From Bacillota bacterium (lineage in GTDB: Bacteria; Bacillota; Limnochordia; Darwinibacteriales; DTU012), in the NCBI GenBank assembly GCA_012837335.1, contig DURM01000065.1, positions 1 to 36,860 on the forward strand: a stretch of 36,860 bases of DNA. Reading direction: 5' to 3'. Each line of letters starts with the position of its first letter. Position 1 is the stretch's first letter. The notes below the pieces were generated by a model. The model saw nothing but the letters and a program-made list of their open reading frames with translations, had not been told where the DNA came from and made no database searches. This document shows, one piece after another, positions 26,592 through 36,860 of the stretch. A program made the position numbers and the translations under genes.

Positions 26592-30267
<3,676 letters not shown>

Positions 30268-30281
30268 TACCGTTTAGATTG

Positions 30282-30325
30282 AACCCTATCGGCTGCTCAT
30301 CTTGAGCAGTTGATAGGGTTTTTTA
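30282..30325 (+). terminator. Terminator after the pyruvate:ferredoxin oxidoreductase gene
   Basis: AACCCTATC (30282-30290) pairs with GATAGGGTT (30312-30320), with an inner CTGCTC/GAGCAG stem, followed by TTTT. Strong two-part hairpin. Confidence 0.9.
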
Positions 30326-30439
30326 TGTGCAGATATAGCAGGACTTTTTAAATTTTACAGCGAATTATCTGCGGTGAGATTAAATTCAGAAAAATAAAAG
30401 AAGAGAATAAAATGATTTTAAAATAGGGGCTGTGATGTA

Positions 30440-31744
30440 ATGAGCATTCTTAAGCTGCCTTATTTCAGCTTTCTCTGGACAGACCAAACCCAAATGGACA
30501 CATGGAAAAACAATTACCCACCTTCTAGTTCCTTTATTAAAGACTTAGGTCTGCGGGAAATAATCGAAAACTTAAGATTAGAGCGGGAATCCAGATGGAT
30601 CGTGGAAGAACTGCTGTATAAACCTTGTACCACTGAAGCAGTGATCGAATATCGGTTGGATATCATGGACGATCTGCTTACAAGCGATGGTTTATTTCAG
30701 TTGTTTCAGAAAATCACTCTGCAGATTGAACAAATCAAGGCTTTTGAGGCAGAATCTGAAGCAGATGCGGTCCACCGCTCAGCTCTATTTTTGCAGAAGT
30801 CGATTATCTACACTGAGGTGATCACTTCTTTATGGGGCGGTTTAGAAAACCATCGCAATGAAATACAATCTCAAGGCTTACAAAAGCTGTCACAGCTGAT
30901 TTCTCAAATTGTAGATTCCAGCGTGTTTCAAAGCATGGCTGCTGAGCTTAAGCAGTTGACAACTCAAGCTGACGCGATCCGCTCAGTTGATCTGGTTTAT
31001 CACTTTGAGAAAATAACTGAATTGGCCGTTGATTGCGCTCCAGGTGAGCATAAAGCATCACTGACTGGGAGACTAATTCAAGCAAGCGAGCGAATTTCAT
31101 TTTTAGCTGCCTATGAAGACTGCGATATAAGCCAGGGAAACAGTTTTTCTCCATTAGAAGGGTGTCTTTTGGAGGAGACTCAAAAGATATATCCGGAGTA
31201 CTTTCAAGCCCTTGAGCACTTTTATGATAAATATCAAGGTTATCCCATGGAACATCTGTTGCCCTTCAGTTCAGAGTTGAGATTTTTCACAGTAATGATT
31301 TCGCTGATTAAAAACATGCAGCAGTACGGATTTGAGTTTTGTAAACCGAAGGTAAGGGCAAAACCAGATAAGCAGATGCAGCTGGAGCAGGTGTACGACT
31401 TAAGCCTGGCGGTGCGGTTAGTTAATGACGACCGCGGCGCTGACCACATAGTGAAAAACGATCATTATTCTGACCAATTTGGAAGGATCTTCATCCTAAC
31501 CGGTCCAAACCAAGGTGGCAAAACAACATTCCTCAGATCGATTGGAATTGCCCAAGTGCTGTTTCAAGCAGGCTGTTTTGTGCCGGCAAGGACCGCTTCC
31601 CTCAGTCCAGTCGATTATTTGTTCACCCATTTTCAAGAAAAAGAAGTGCTGGGCGTCAAAAAGGGAAGACTGGGCGAGGAAGCCGCGCGAATTGCTGAGA
31701 TTTTTAGTAAAGCTACCGAATCCAGCCTGATCCTGCTTAATTAA
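30440..31744 (+). CDS. Truncated MutS-like ATPase, module A (probable pseudogene half)
   Basis: 434 residues. The N-terminal 270 or so form a helical core and lever like MutS-family proteins, and the ATPase follows with Walker A GPNQGGKTTFLRS. The chain stops at TAA 31742-31744 exactly where the Walker B glutamate should be: it reads SLILLN, stop, TFSSA, while module B downstream reads SFLLMNESFSSTN. A single G-to-T change of GAA gives TAA. The catalytic glutamate, the FVTH loop and the dimer region are absent, so this product should not be an active ATPase. The frame continues open past the stop into module B. No mismatch-binding domain is present, so it is not true MutS or MutL-linked repair. 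Confidence 0.7.
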   Translation: MSILKLPYFSFLWTDQTQMDTWKNNYPPSSSFIKDLGLREIIENLRLERESRWIVEELLYKPCTTEAVIEYRLDIMDDLLTSDGLFQLFQKITLQIEQIKAFEAESEADAVHRSALFLQKSIIYTEVITSLWGGLENHRNEIQSQGLQKLSQLISQIVDSSVFQSMAAELKQLTTQADAIRSVDLVYHFEKITELAVDCAPGEHKASLTGRLIQASERISFLAAYEDCDISQGNSFSPLEGCLLEETQKIYPEYFQALEHFYDKYQGYPMEHLLPFSSELRFFTVMISLIKNMQQYGFEFCKPKVRAKPDKQMQLEQVYDLSLAVRLVNDDRGADHIVKNDHYSDQFGRIFILTGPNQGGKTTFLRSIGIAQVLFQAGCFVPARTASLSPVDYLFTHFQEKEVLGVKKGRLGEEAARIAEIFSKATESSLILLN

Positions 31745-32758
31745 ACTTTCTCCAGTGCCAGAAGATTTGGCGGCTTATTAAGACGCAGGCAGGAACAAGC
31801 AAGTTGGAAAGCGATCAATGACCCTAAATTTTTCGGTCAAAGAAGCGTGATAGAGCTTGCCGAAAAAACTCTGCTCCATCTAGGGGGAGTTGTTTCCAGC
31901 ATTACTTCCGCCTTAATGCGGTTCTTCACAAACTTAGAAACTGAAATGCTGTTTTATCAAGGGGCAGTGGAGCTGATTCAAACCCTTGAGAAATTAGGTC
32001 TGCCGATGTGCCGGCCGCAGTTTGTCTCATGTGAAAGCAAACAGTTTGCAGCTTCGGGCATCTATGATCTGAGTTTTGCTCTCCATCTGGCAGCCCGAGC
32101 AGGGTATTCTTCAGATGTAATTGTCAAAAATGATGTGCAGATGAACAGCAAGCAGGGCCAGATTTTTATAGTCACAGGGCCTAACCAAGGTGGCAAAACC
32201 ACTTATCTGCGGGCGATCGGGATCACGCAGCTGCTTGCTCAGGCAGGCATGCTAGTTCCTGCAGAGAGTGCTGTGATCAGTCCTGTTGATTGGATTTATA
32301 CGCACTTTTCCAGCGCAGAGAAGGCAGGCACTGACAGGGGCAGGTTGGAAGAGGAAATGGTTCTTCTTGAACAGATCATGAAGGAAATCTCTGGTGATAG
32401 TTTCCTGTTGATGAATGAATCGTTCTCTTCCACCAACTCCCATGAAGGTACAATCATAGCAGAAGAGATTCTTAAAGCTTTAAGCTTGATTGGGACAAGG
32501 GTTATCTTTGTAACCCATTTATACGAGCTCGCTAAAAAGATCGATGTAATTAATGCAAGTACCAATGGAATTACCAAATTGGTCAGCTTGGTGGCTGGGA
32601 TCAAACAGCCCGCAAACAACGAAGATGGTAAGACCCAAGGTATTGAGCGTACCTATCTTGTTACACCAGGAGAGCCGCTGCCCACTGGTTTTGCCAGTGA
32701 TATCGCTTACCAGTACGGGATCAGTTACGAGGAGCTGATCCGAAGCTCAAGCTGTTGA
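31745..32758 (+). pseudogene. MutS-like ATPase, module B, lacking its N-terminal half
   Basis: Same frame as module A and open from the TAA to TGA 32756-32758. The best internal start is GTG 31847 (303 residues), but no ribosome site precedes it. Codons 31745-31846 encode TFSSA and then a basic stretch (RRFGGLLRRRQEQASW) that no longer follows module A's ATPase. From about 31905 a lever segment leads to a complete ATPase: Walker A GPNQGGKTTYLRA, Walker B FLLMNESFSSTN, and FVTHLYELA. The core domain is missing. The likely origin is two adjacent paralogous genes joined by a deletion that removed the end of A and the beginning of B, plus the nonsense change. If expressed, B alone would be an ATPase domain fragment. 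Confidence 0.65.
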
Positions 32759-32830
32759 ACCAAATAGAGGGATCTATTGCGGACAAGTGCGGTATAATAG
32801 CTTAGTAAGTATTAATCAGGAGGAATCGCA

Positions 32831-33787
32831 ATGAAAATCGTATTACTAGAACCATTAGGAATTTCAGAAAAGAAGCTTTCAGCGCTTGTCCGTCCTTTCT
32901 TGGATGCAGGCCATGCTTTTGTTGCTATGCCGGAGAGCAGTGAAAAAGCTGATTGGCTCCGTGAAGCCAAAGATGCGGATGTCGTGGTTATCGGCAATAA
33001 ACCTCTGCCGGGTGAGTTTATTTCCCAATGCGAAAAGCTCAAATTCATTTCGGTGGCGTTTACCGGATTTGATCACATCGATATTGAGCAGTGCCGCAAA
33101 CAGGGGATCGCAGTCTCCAATGCATCAGGTTATGCAAATACAGCTGTCGCGGAAACGACAATCGGACTGATGATCAGCACTATGCGCCGCTTCAAAGAAA
33201 CTGAAGAACGCTGCCGCACCGGCGGTACTAAGGATGGATTGGTAGGTCCACTGCTGGCGGGAAAAACCGTGGGGGTAATCGGCACAGGTGCAATCGGTTC
33301 AGCAGTAATCAAACTGCTTAATGCCTTTGGCTGCCGTGTGCTGGGTTATTCACCTTCAGAGAAGTCCCCGGAGGAGGTTCGGAGAGTCGGCTATGAAAAG
33401 GTGTCACTGGAACAGCTCCTGGCTGAATCCGATGTGGTGACACTGCACTGCCCGCTTAATGACTCCACCCGCGGCATGATTGGAGCCAACGAGCTGGCAA
33501 GTATGAAGGATGGAGCTTACTTATTCAATTTGGCAAGGGGTCCGGTAGTGGACAGCCAAGCCTTGGCTGTCGCTTTAAACAGCGGCAAATTAGCCGGCGC
33601 AGGAGTTGACGTTTATGAAATCGAGCCTCCACTGCCAGTGGATCATCCGCTGCTCAAGGCTAAAAACATAGTAACACTGCCGCATATTGCCTGGTATTCT
33701 CACCAGTCACTAGAACTGCGGGCAGAGATTGCTTTTGATAATGTCCGGGAGTGGATGGCAGGCTGTCAGCAGAATAAAGTTATTTAA
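32831..33787 (+). CDS. D-isomer-specific 2-hydroxyacid dehydrogenase
   Basis: 318 residues; CAGGAGGAATCGCA lies before ATG 32831. It should interconvert a 2-oxoacid and its D-2-hydroxyacid using NAD(P)H. The family frame is complete: N-terminal substrate domain with FTGFDHID, the dinucleotide motif GVIGTGAIGSAV, HCPLNDSTRGMI, the catalytic arginine in NLARGPVVD, the glutamate in DVYEIEPPLP, and the histidine in LPHIAWYS. Glycerate, lactate and 2-hydroxyisocaproate enzymes share this pattern and I cannot choose between them. A TATAAT at 32793-32798 lacks a good -35. It is flanked by the MutS-like remnants and a terminator, so it is probably a single-gene unit. Confidence 0.9.
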   Translation: MKIVLLEPLGISEKKLSALVRPFLDAGHAFVAMPESSEKADWLREAKDADVVVIGNKPLPGEFISQCEKLKFISVAFTGFDHIDIEQCRKQGIAVSNASGYANTAVAETTIGLMISTMRRFKETEERCRTGGTKDGLVGPLLAGKTVGVIGTGAIGSAVIKLLNAFGCRVLGYSPSEKSPEEVRRVGYEKVSLEQLLAESDVVTLHCPLNDSTRGMIGANELASMKDGAYLFNLARGPVVDSQALAVALNSGKLAGAGVDVYEIEPPLPVDHPLLKAKNIVTLPHIAWYSHQSLELRAEIAFDNVREWMAGCQQNKVI

Positions 33788-33803
33788 CAGTTAAAAAACC
33801 TTG

Positions 33804-33829
33804 AGTCCAGAGATTTCTGGACTTTTTTA
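33804..33829 (+). terminator. Terminator after the 2-hydroxyacid dehydrogenase gene
   Basis: AGTCCAGA (33804-33811) pairs with TCTGGACT (33816-33823), 4-base loop, followed by TTTTT. Confidence 0.85.
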
Positions 33830-33842
33830 TGGAAATTTTTCC

Positions 33843-33877
33843 TTGACCTGAAAGAAAGCTGCACCTTAGATCGTCTA
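33843..33877 (+). promoter_or_regulatory. Overlapping sigma-A and ECF-type promoter candidates of the sigma-HEAT gene
   Basis: TTGACC (33843-33848), N17, TTAGAT is a sigma-A candidate. TGAAAG (33849-33854), N17, CGTCTA (33872-33877) resembles promoters read by ECF sigma factors (TGAAAC and CGTC types), which would allow self-activation. AGGAGG at 33891-33896 follows. Confidence 0.45.
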
Positions 33878-33903
33878 ATAAGTGAAAGAAAGGAGGATCC
33901 GCC

Positions 33904-35889
33904 ATGGTAGATGACACACACCTGGTACTGCGAGCACTGAAAGGAGAGCGGGACAAGTACGGTGAACTGGTTGAAAAATACCAAAAACCCCTGCTTGGAT
34001 TAGCTTTCTCTTATGTGCAGAATTATCAGAATGCGCAGGATATCGTGCAGGATGCTTTGATTGTAGGGTACCGGCAGCTGGCCAGCTTGCGTCAGCCCCA
34101 TAGATTTGACGCTTGGATCCGCCAAATTACCATCAATATCTCTAAGTCGCATCTGCGCAAGCAGAGGAGAAATCAGCAGCAGAGCGACTGCTCTCTGTTA
34201 ATGCTCTCAGCTGATGGAGATTTGTCGGCTGTGCCAGAAGCAAATGTAGAGACAAAGCACAGACAGAACCTGATCCGAAAAGCTTTAGCCGGACTCAACC
34301 CTAAGCACCGAGAAGTTATCGTCCTGCATCACATCCTGAACTACTCTGCCGCTGAAATTGCTGCCATCCTAGGTGTAACAGCAAATACTGTTTATGTGCG
34401 TCTCAGCCGTGGACGGAAGGCTCTCCAAAGGGAGTTGATCAATGTGTTTGAAGACGATCTGCATATGTTAGGATGCGAAGCCCATCTATATCTGCAGCGA
34501 CTAACCGAAGAGATTAAGAAGAAACTTGCGGCTGAAAACCCGCGGGAGCAGAGGGAGGCAGCAGGGCAGTTACGGTTGACAGCAGCTAGGGCGAATCATT
34601 CCCGCTTGCTTGCTGATCTTGCTGCTGATAACAGCAAGATTCGGCTGGAAGCAGCGGAGATTATCGGTCAAACTGAGGAAAAGCGGCTGATACCACCATT
34701 GCTGGAGCGGTTATCCTTAGAAAGTGAGCCCAACATCCAGATTAGGATAATCCAGAGCTTAGTCGAGTTGGAGGCAGTTGAGGCTGTACCGGTGCTGGAA
34801 GAGCTGCAGCGGCAGACCATCCATATGGATGTCCACAAGCAGTGCGGCAAAGCGGTGCGCTGCTTGGCTGATGTAAAGGACAGCAAACCGAGAGCAGTTC
34901 CCATAACTACTGCCGATTTAAGAGATGCTGGGCTGGATCAAATTATGATTCAAATGCTGGAGGAAACCGCTGATCCAGTAACCATGATTTCTCTGCTGGA
35001 TGGATTAGGTAGATTAGGAACTGCGAAACCATTAAAAAAAGTCTGCGATCTTTTATTGAAGGTACCCTATCCGCAAGTAAGGCGGCAGGCTGCCATCACC
35101 CTGGGGCAGATTGGAACCAGCAGTGCTTTCATTATGGAAAGTCTGCTTAAGGCAGTCTTGGACCAGGATTGGACAGTAGTTGACGCAGCGGTAAAAACTT
35201 TGGCAGACTTGACTCCGAAGGAGCAAACGGATGTGGTAATCCACGCTCTCCTAGATGTTTTTTGGGACTCGCTGTCTAAGCCTTTTCCTGTGCGCTTCAC
35301 TTTAGCAGCTGCAGTTGCAAAACTCGCTGACAGAGAATTAAAATGGGCAGATGAGCTGCTTCCCAGAGTTATTCAGGAACTAGAAAACTATCCGGCTAAA
35401 GCTGAGTATCAAAAGTTTCACGCAAGCAGGGTTCTCTGCGGCTTAGTGGCGGACTTAATTCCACCTGGTTTTAACGACTTAAATGAAAAGATATTAAACC
35501 TGTTAAATACCAACAAGTTTGTCACCATCCCGCCGCTGCTTTTAGCTTTAGGCTACAGTAAGGACGCTGAATGTATCGCCACTATCAGCACTTACTTGTC
35601 CTATGAAGCACCTGACAGGCGGTATGAGGAGTATGGCAAGCAGGTGAGAGAATCGGCAGTTAGAGCCTTGATGAATATTGGGGAGGCTGGTTGGCCGAGA
35701 TTACGGGAAGCTTTGATGGATTCCGGCACAAGCGATCATGCCAAACTGAGCATCTTAGATGTGTGGCAGAAAGAGTTAAGTTTGCAGCAGATTGCTGAAT
35801 TACAAGGGCTGGATGTAAGGGGCAATGCCCGTTTCTTGAATAAATGGCAGCTGTTGCTGCGCAAGGCTGAAATAAGCTCGATACCATAG
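33904..35889 (+). CDS. ECF-type sigma factor fused to a HEAT-repeat domain
   Basis: 661 residues from ATG 33904 (AGGAGG, 7-base spacer), over three times a normal ECF sigma factor. Residues about 8-90 are sigma region 2 (YQNAQDIVQDALIVGYRQLASL, then RFDAWIRQITINISKSHLRK), and about 120-178 are sigma region 4 (LNPKHREVIVLHHILNYSAAEIAAILGVTANTVYVRLSRGRKAL). From about 205 to 640 runs a chain of helical pairs of HEAT/PBS-lyase type (NSKIRLEAAEIIG, NIQIRIIQSLVELEAVEAVPVLEEL, YPQVRRQAAITLGQIG, QVRESAVRALMNIGEAGWPRL). No anti-sigma gene is adjacent. The repeat domain may hold the sigma part in check or bind a partner; this is inference. The stop codon is inside the following terminator. Confidence 0.88.
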   Translation: MVDDTHLVLRALKGERDKYGELVEKYQKPLLGLAFSYVQNYQNAQDIVQDALIVGYRQLASLRQPHRFDAWIRQITINISKSHLRKQRRNQQQSDCSLLMLSADGDLSAVPEANVETKHRQNLIRKALAGLNPKHREVIVLHHILNYSAAEIAAILGVTANTVYVRLSRGRKALQRELINVFEDDLHMLGCEAHLYLQRLTEEIKKKLAAENPREQREAAGQLRLTAARANHSRLLADLAADNSKIRLEAAEIIGQTEEKRLIPPLLERLSLESEPNIQIRIIQSLVELEAVEAVPVLEELQRQTIHMDVHKQCGKAVRCLADVKDSKPRAVPITTADLRDAGLDQIMIQMLEETADPVTMISLLDGLGRLGTAKPLKKVCDLLLKVPYPQVRRQAAITLGQIGTSSAFIMESLLKAVLDQDWTVVDAAVKTLADLTPKEQTDVVIHALLDVFWDSLSKPFPVRFTLAAAVAKLADRELKWADELLPRVIQELENYPAKAEYQKFHASRVLCGLVADLIPPGFNDLNEKILNLLNTNKFVTIPPLLLALGYSKDAECIATISTYLSYEAPDRRYEEYGKQVRESAVRALMNIGEAGWPRLREALMDSGTSDHAKLSILDVWQKELSLQQIAELQGLDVRGNARFLNKWQLLLRKAEISSIP

Positions 35890-35915
35890 ACACCTGATTT
35901 GGGTGTCTATTTTTT
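35886..35915 (+). terminator. Terminator overlapping the stop codon of the sigma-HEAT gene
   Basis: ATAGACACC (35886-35894) pairs with GGTGTCTAT (35902-35910), followed by TTTTT. The stop TAG (35887-35889) is inside the left arm. Confidence 0.85.
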
Positions 35916-36058
35916 CATTGTTATCACTAAGTAGGAATAAAACAAATGAAATAATTTGAAAAGAGCAGGAAATAATAAATTAAAAACAAAATAAAAAATA
36001 AAGGTAATTAATAGGAATAGCAAGTGGACCTAGACCTAGTTTCTAAAGCTGAGACAAG
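35916..36058. other. A+T-rich intergenic stretch without a gene
   Basis: From about 35930 to 36020 the plus strand is almost only A, T and G with many A runs, unlike the rest of the window. I see no coding frame, repeat family or known RNA in it. Confidence 0.6.
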
Positions 36059-36059
36059 G

Positions 36060-36087
36060 TGGAAAATCATTTGAAGAAATGCGTCTA
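36060..36087 (+). promoter_or_regulatory. ECF-type promoter candidate before the exported-protein gene
   Basis: TGGAAA (36060-36065), N16, CGTCTA (36082-36087) has the same CGTCTA element as the region before the sigma-HEAT gene. It lies inside an inverted repeat (GGTG and ATCATT at 36058-36071 with AATGAT and CACC at 36094-36105). A sigma-A alternative is TTGAAG (36072-36077), N18, TGATAT. Confidence 0.35.
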
Positions 36088-36160
36088 GAAAGCAATGATA
36101 TCACCTATAGCGCGCGGAACTAGAGCGGCATGACCAAGCGATTATTGAAAGGGGATTAAT

Positions 36161-36860
36161 ATGGCTTATAAGAAAGCTACAATGATTATGCTTTTGGTAG
36201 TATGTACTATTCTCATTGTAGGCAGCATTTCTGCAGCTAATTCGATCAATGATCGGTTGGTTACAGACTTTACCGAAGCAATGCAGCATGCAGCCGTATA
36301 TCGCGAATTAGTTCTGTCGGAAACAGGAGAACCAGTTGAACTTGTGCTGACCGTTTACGAGGAGCCTGTTGTAATCGATTATTTCTATAACTCAATGGAC
36401 GAGGTTGATTTTTCATTACCTGAAGGTGTGTCCTTATCAAACTCATCAGCTTTTACGCTGGAATGGTCAGATGCAACCTGGGATATCCAAACGCCGCCTC
36501 ATTTAGAAGAGTGGTCAGCAGAAGGACTTTTAAGATTTAAACTGTGGTGCGAATCTCGCCTAGCAGAATATGTGGTAGGCAAGATAGAATTAACGTATGA
36601 TCAAACAGATTATGTTATGTTCAAGATTTTTCGCGAGTTTGAGTCTTACGGAATCTATTTTGTCAACATATTAGCTAAAACCGGCGATCGATGGAAGCTG
36701 GTAACCCCAGGTTATAACACACTAATAGGTTATTTAGGTGGATTGTTTACAAATTTAAAGGTGCCCGTATTTGCAGCAATGCTTACGCGAAGTTATCGTA
36801 CACCTGTAATTGAGGTTCAACAATTTTACCACGAATCCATAAAATCAGGGGTTTTTGAGC
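36161..36860 (+). CDS. Exported protein of unknown family (3' end outside window)
   Basis: An open frame of 233 codons from ATG 36161 runs off the right edge without a stop. AAAGGGG at 36148-36154 is 6 bases upstream. The N terminus is a signal peptide: MAYKKATM, a hydrophobic core (IMLLVVCTILIVGSI) and a likely cut after SAA. The mature part is acidic and strand-rich (EPVELVLTVYEEPVVIDYFYN, FTLEWSDATWDI, GKIELTYDQTDYVMFKIF) with a later WKLVTPGYNTLIGYLGGLF segment. I do not recognise the family. It lies next to the sigma-HEAT gene and has an upstream element like that gene's, so it may be its target. Confidence 0.7.
   Translation, partial: MAYKKATMIMLLVVCTILIVGSISAANSINDRLVTDFTEAMQHAAVYRELVLSETGEPVELVLTVYEEPVVIDYFYNSMDEVDFSLPEGVSLSNSSAFTLEWSDATWDIQTPPHLEEWSAEGLLRFKLWCESRLAEYVVGKIELTYDQTDYVMFKIFREFESYGIYFVNILAKTGDRWKLVTPGYNTLIGYLGGLFTNLKVPVFAAMLTRSYRTPVIEVQQFYHESIKSGVFE

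Follow-up and report, generated by a model that had tools for sequence, protein, structure and literature searches.

The window analysed here is the whole stretch of 36,860 nucleotides, and near its end lies a forward-strand gene for a fusion of an ECF sigma factor with a HEAT solenoid (33904..35889, 661 aa), which was recognized by its open reading frame, its domain matches and an ortholog. The frame opens with an ATG preceded by a ribosome binding site, AAGGAGG (33890..33896, +), and runs through 661 codons uninterrupted by stops. Upstream lies a D-2-hydroxyacid dehydrogenase gene, separated from the fusion gene by its own terminator (33803..33829, +), and a further intrinsic terminator stands at the end of the fusion gene (35886..35915, +). 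With terminators on both sides, the gene reads as monocistronic. Farther upstream, two MutS-like ORFs lie in one frame (30440-31744 and 31847-32758); the first ends directly past a LILLN motif and the second is without its N-terminal part, and the pair looks like what is left of two tandem MutS-like genes after truncation or collapse. Downstream, an ORF whose N-terminus holds a membrane or signal segment is cut by the contig end (36161-36860), and no Pfam or NCBIfam family exceeded its cut-off on it.

The N-terminal part of the protein has the make-up of an ECF (group IV) sigma factor, with sigma2 and sigma4 only, a linker of about 18-30 residues (<50) and no sigma3 or sigma1.1. Sigma region 2 spans residues 4-93 (33913..34182, +), as delimited by Pfam PF04542 (Sigma70_r2 at residues 22-89, E 3e-13) and by the helices of the structural model, and sigma region 4 spans residues ~111-180 (34234..34443, +), as delimited by PF08281 (Sigma70_r4_2 at residues 123-174, E 7e-17), the model and conservation. 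Both Pfam matches lie above the gathering score. The NCBIfam model TIGR02937 for sigma70-ECF also matches over its cut-off (E 4.5e-29), PDB sequence matches at residues ~3-190 are to SigW, AlgU and sigma-E, and the ECF-invariant positions D46, Q49 and W71 are all retained. Judged from these sequence features, sigma2 and sigma4 are intact. The gene is single-copy in its own genome (2.4 Mb, 98% complete), where four other sigma matches are dissimilar to it.

A long helix, residues 160-209 (34381..34530, +), connects the end of sigma4 to the solenoid and contains a block conserved with the ortholog, FxDDLHxLGCEAHLYL. The N-terminal part of the solenoid, residues 213-324 (34540..34875, +), is defined by model helices and by a HEAT_2 match on the corresponding ortholog segment (E 2e-4). 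It is followed by a loop of low model confidence between the solenoid halves, residues 325-335 (34876..34908, +), which sits within the conserved stretch PRxxPITxADLRDAGLDQIM (residues 329-348), and by the C-terminal part, residues 336-658 (34909..35877, +), which is defined by Pfam HEAT_2/HEAT and the model. On the fusion protein, HEAT_2 matches in three stretches (E 8e-20; 71.3 bits vs a gathering score of 27.7), HEAT_PBS and HEAT also exceed their gathering scores, and PDB sequence matches at residues ~350-480 are to alphaRep/HEAT chains. The extension thus has the hallmarks of HEAT repeats, with tandem helical hairpins over the Pfam gathering score and an all-helical solenoid in the model. 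Collectively, the Pfam, NCBIfam and PDB matches and the AlphaFold2 model bear out the initial annotation, which had read the locus as complete sigma regions 2 and 4 followed by a HEAT solenoid in one 661-residue chain.

The AlphaFold2 model of the fusion was built from a 41-row alignment and reached a mean pLDDT of 82; a model from 2 sequences was too weak (pLDDT 62.6) and was set aside. Sigma2 and sigma4 are modelled confidently, and are followed by an all-helical solenoid of about 26 helices (residues 213-658), with a single unbroken helix, residues 160-209, as the bridge. At a pTM of 0.42 the placement of the sigma part relative to the solenoid, and with it the packing on region 2 or 4 that was asked about earlier, is not reliably predicted. 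In Foldseek searches the sigma part of the model matched SigW and RpoE structures, the best being SigW bound to RsiW, with TM scores of 0.85 by target for anti-sigma-bound SigW (5wur) and 0.73 for NepR-bound RpoE (5uxx), vs about 0.4 only for promoter-bound ECFs. The remainder of the model matched alphaRep and other HEAT/ARM solenoids, and further neighbours were karyopherins, the PP2A scaffold and beta-catenin.

An ortholog, P0002, was found in another genus of the family (record SKHL01000073.1, locus L025, 2023-3762) and is about 51% identical to the fusion over residues 2-585, as far as its contig end, the sigma part reaching 58% identity and the solenoid 49%. The junction, residues 161-200, is the best-conserved stretch (80-90% identity). 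Because P0002 crosses the junction without a break and these residues are conserved best, a frameshift or assembly join near residue 185, which had been named as grounds for discarding the fusion, is ruled out. Within this stretch, the helix that follows the HTH turn (residues 161-180) shows 90% identity vs 52% overall, which would fit a maintained promoter specificity. In a third genus (G008), a deletion scar lies behind a MutS-like gene (L033, 750-935), with a dehydrogenase piece reading GFDHVDIEQ, then ~40 C-terminal fusion codons (33 aligned residues, 64% identical to the fusion), and then the same terminator as in the window. This scar indicates that the gene order of the window is old in the family and that the fusion gene was lost there by deletion. 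The fusion is present in 2 of the 9 genomes of the family and deleted in a third, and no copy was detected in four other genomes of its own genus; its absence is less certain in G001, where the contig stops right after the dehydrogenase gene. The fusion is real and inherited.

Upstream of the gene, 26 nt before the ATG, lies an ECF-type promoter candidate, TGAAAG-N17-CGTCTA (33849..33877, +), and the same element precedes P0002, 31 nt before its ATG (L025, 1963-1991). All 12 bases of the bipartite element agree between the two upstream regions, which are otherwise unlike. Among dinucleotide shuffles, 350 of 237,270 produced a 6+6 element matching at 12/12 bases no more than 6 nt from the same position (p ~0.0015), and 751 of 59,886 did so when the position was left free. 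The candidate is the sole exact match of the element in its own genome (2.4 Mb), and of three exact matches in the ortholog genome the P0002 site alone stands before a same-strand gene start. No sigma-70-type promoter candidate was found upstream of the fusion gene. In this predicted element, which is based on two sequences, the -10 has CGT, and the -35 has AAG in place of the AAC usual for ECF motifs. Among ECFs, CGT is a classical signature at -10 and autoregulation a common trait (PMC8103513). The fusion sigma factor seems to control its own gene, and positive autoregulation would fit the two-sequence promoter candidate. Allowing one mismatch or looser spacing gave no convincing second target and hence no wider regulon. 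Elsewhere in the same genome, a weak reverse-strand site, GAAA-N18-CGTCTA (L130, G000:C23:81527-81554), overlaps the start of a SpoIIGA-like gene and faces, at a distance of 187 nt, a sigG-like gene; this may be chance.

The fusion is rare. No second ECF-HEAT fusion was found in 73 genomes of the class or in 398 genomes sampled across the phylum, which were searched with the solenoid as query and with a two-ortholog profile. In the phylum sample, the profile matches listed besides the query covered the sigma part alone, in frames of about 180-285 aa, except for a long ORF in G173, which proved to hold an ordinary ECF of 203 aa and, behind it, a ZAS anti-sigma encoded separately; the HEAT matches in G316 and G180 were plain HEAT proteins without sigma. 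Viral contigs gave no match, phages and plasmids showed the sigma part only among the matches listed, and the solenoid alone as query found no plasmid match. These results agree with the earlier opinion that a HEAT solenoid of such size is unusual on an ECF factor, and the counter-possibility, a large and already described ECF group, was seen neither in the 398-genome sample nor in the literature searched. The portions of that literature that deal with HEAT repeats together with ECF or sigma factors describe no ECF-HEAT protein. Set against the phylum sample and the searched literature, the fusion is probably an undescribed ECF subgroup. In a tree of 41 sigma domains, the two fusion proteins pair (100/99) on a long branch, and their sister group (97/89) consists of short ECFs with a ZAS anti-sigma as the next gene.

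A co-transcribed anti-sigma factor is a classical ECF trait that is no longer required. An ORF with a ZAS motif occurs within the fetched flanks of 25 of the 29 ordinary ECF relatives. At the fusion locus, no HxxxCxxC ZAS motif was found in any frame of at least 60 aa (window 29000-36860, ~1 kb downstream of the gene included), nor in such frames of L025 and L033, in keeping with the observation in the initial annotation that no anti-sigma gene adjoins the fusion. The terminator-flanked gene, with no ZAS ORF nearby and 1 kb downstream covered, is in this respect not a classical ECF unit. A more distant anti-sigma or partner gene may exist, as P0002 is truncated where its contig stops and only 1 kb of the window lies beyond the fusion gene. 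In place of the dehydrogenase gene seen here, the neighbours of P0002 are a divergent predicted regulator and an ABC transporter gene, and no partner gene is conserved across the two ortholog loci; the fusion recurs in one further genus, with different neighbours. A degenerate ZAS domain after sigma4 had been suspected from the CEAHLYL motif, with a weak first match (prob 4.5%), and was rejected when 27 ZAS sequences, compared by hmmsearch and hhalign with shuffles, gave nothing on residues 178-262.

The reading we prefer, to which we give an even chance, is that the protein is a functional, autoregulated and self-contained ECF factor with its regulator in cis, gated by a built-in, protein-docking HEAT solenoid. 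The domain make-up, the continuity across two genera, the shared promoter-like site and the lack of an adjacent anti-sigma gene are observed; autoregulation, partner binding and conformational gating are what we infer. Sigma2 and sigma4 would direct RNA polymerase to TGAAAG-N17-CGTCTA promoters, foremost that of the gene itself, while the solenoid would stand in for the ZAS anti-sigma found beside most ordinary relatives. As a docking platform it might be engaged or released by a protein partner (a small ligand being less likely), and such an event could move the solenoid against the long helix that ties it to sigma4, uncovering or covering the surfaces by which sigma contacts polymerase and DNA. 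By analogy with ECF42, ECF57 and ECF41 (PMC8999054), the solenoid may plausibly be a sensor or inhibitor, as initially surmised. The broader claim, that this is an undescribed ECF group in which a HEAT solenoid of ~450 residues replaced the anti-sigma factor as the partner-operated gate of a mainly self-controlling sigma factor, is put forward tentatively, with the balance somewhat against it.

Other readings of the extension were weighed. The solenoid could be an autoinhibitory anti-sigma module that wraps sigma2/sigma4 until a signal or proteolysis frees them, as proposed for ECF41 or IutY, whose extensions inhibit. The separate ZAS anti-sigma factors of the relatives would suit this idea, as would the closeness of the modelled sigma part to anti-sigma-bound rather than promoter-bound structures, but that SigW-like compact form may be what AlphaFold2 yields for any isolated ECF and was not counted as evidence. 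Moreover, the pTM is only 0.42, no solenoid-sigma contacts were readable from the model, and the segment after sigma4 is no degenerate ZAS domain. We regard autoinhibition as an unlikely but serious contender. It is rather improbable that the solenoid is non-regulatory and serves as a localization or co-activator arm that tethers the holoenzyme to nucleic acid, a DNA-bound protein or another complex: scaffolding is common for HEAT/ARM solenoids, including those among its Foldseek neighbours, and the long rigid helix leaving sigma4 would hold the solenoid out from the -35 region, but neither a conserved partner gene nor a DNA-binding motif was found. Finally, a chance joining of two genes, one for an ECF factor and one for a HEAT protein, or a decaying gene without distinct function, would fit the very patchy distribution and the truncated look of the upstream MutS-like ORFs but is very improbable, as two genera at 51% identity conserve both domains and the junction with the frame open, and the site upstream of the gene is conserved too.

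Compared to known ECF systems, the fusion shares some features with each and differs in its extension. First, SigW-type factors resemble it in the sigma domain (26-27% identity to SigW, 5wuq/5wur, with high structural similarity) and in an ECF-like promoter, a candidate in the fusion, with CGT at -10; however, they measure about 190 aa and have their ZAS anti-sigma as a separate, co-encoded protein, whereas the fusion carries its HEAT solenoid in cis and has no anti-sigma gene beside it. Second, other long ECFs of the class also carry C-terminal regions of 250-450 residues in related genomes, but these vary in kind (winged-helix-like, zinc-finger, BFN domain, unnamed), and Pfam found no HEAT repeats in those that were scanned. 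Large extensions are therefore not unusual in the lineage, where ECFs of 430-640 aa have other C-terminal regions; the extension habit is not unique, and the HEAT solenoid is found in one gene family alone. For example, ECF frames of 459-615 aa (L109, L111, L112, L114 and L115) share a conserved C-terminal region of ~300 residues, in which Pfam names no family (L109 and L114 scanned) and whose end is acetyltransferase-like by eye. In a 637-aa ECF (L013, 1120-3033) the fused part comprises a bifunctional nuclease (BFN) domain plus another C-terminal region, and ECFs at L118-L121 have a fused ZAS-like segment and a C-terminal domain of ~200 residues, with a zf-HC2 match under its cut-off in L118.

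Third, according to sections of a published account (PMC8999054), at least 26 ECF groups have regulatory extensions, which are little studied; the C-terminal extensions of ECF41 and IutY are inhibitory, ECF42 cannot do without its TPR extension for activity, and ECF57 carries WD40 extensions. The SnoaL-like C-terminal domain of ECF41 is absent from the fusion by Pfam. ECF42 likewise joins sigma2/sigma4 to a C-terminal all-helical repeat solenoid without an anti-sigma, and its extension is thought to act by protein interaction (sections of PMC8999054); however, it has about 200 residues of TPR and a YCII-domain neighbour, whereas the fusion has about 450 residues of HEAT, no TPR family by Pfam and no YCII in the neighbouring window genes that were scanned. 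ECF57, as described in the same sections, also combines an ECF factor with a protein-interaction repeat domain in a single chain, but its repeats are WD40 beta-propeller repeats and those of the fusion are HEAT helices, with no WD40 match by Pfam and an all-alpha model. Mechanistically, the fusion would be most like ECF42/ECF57, with a different and larger extension. The TPR and WD40 extensions give precedent that repeat domains can regulate sigma, and a HEAT solenoid, far larger than its sigma, would add a new building block to the ECF extensions. As a compact system of one gene with a predicted promoter of its own, it would allow in vitro tests of how a repeat extension switches a sigma factor on or off.
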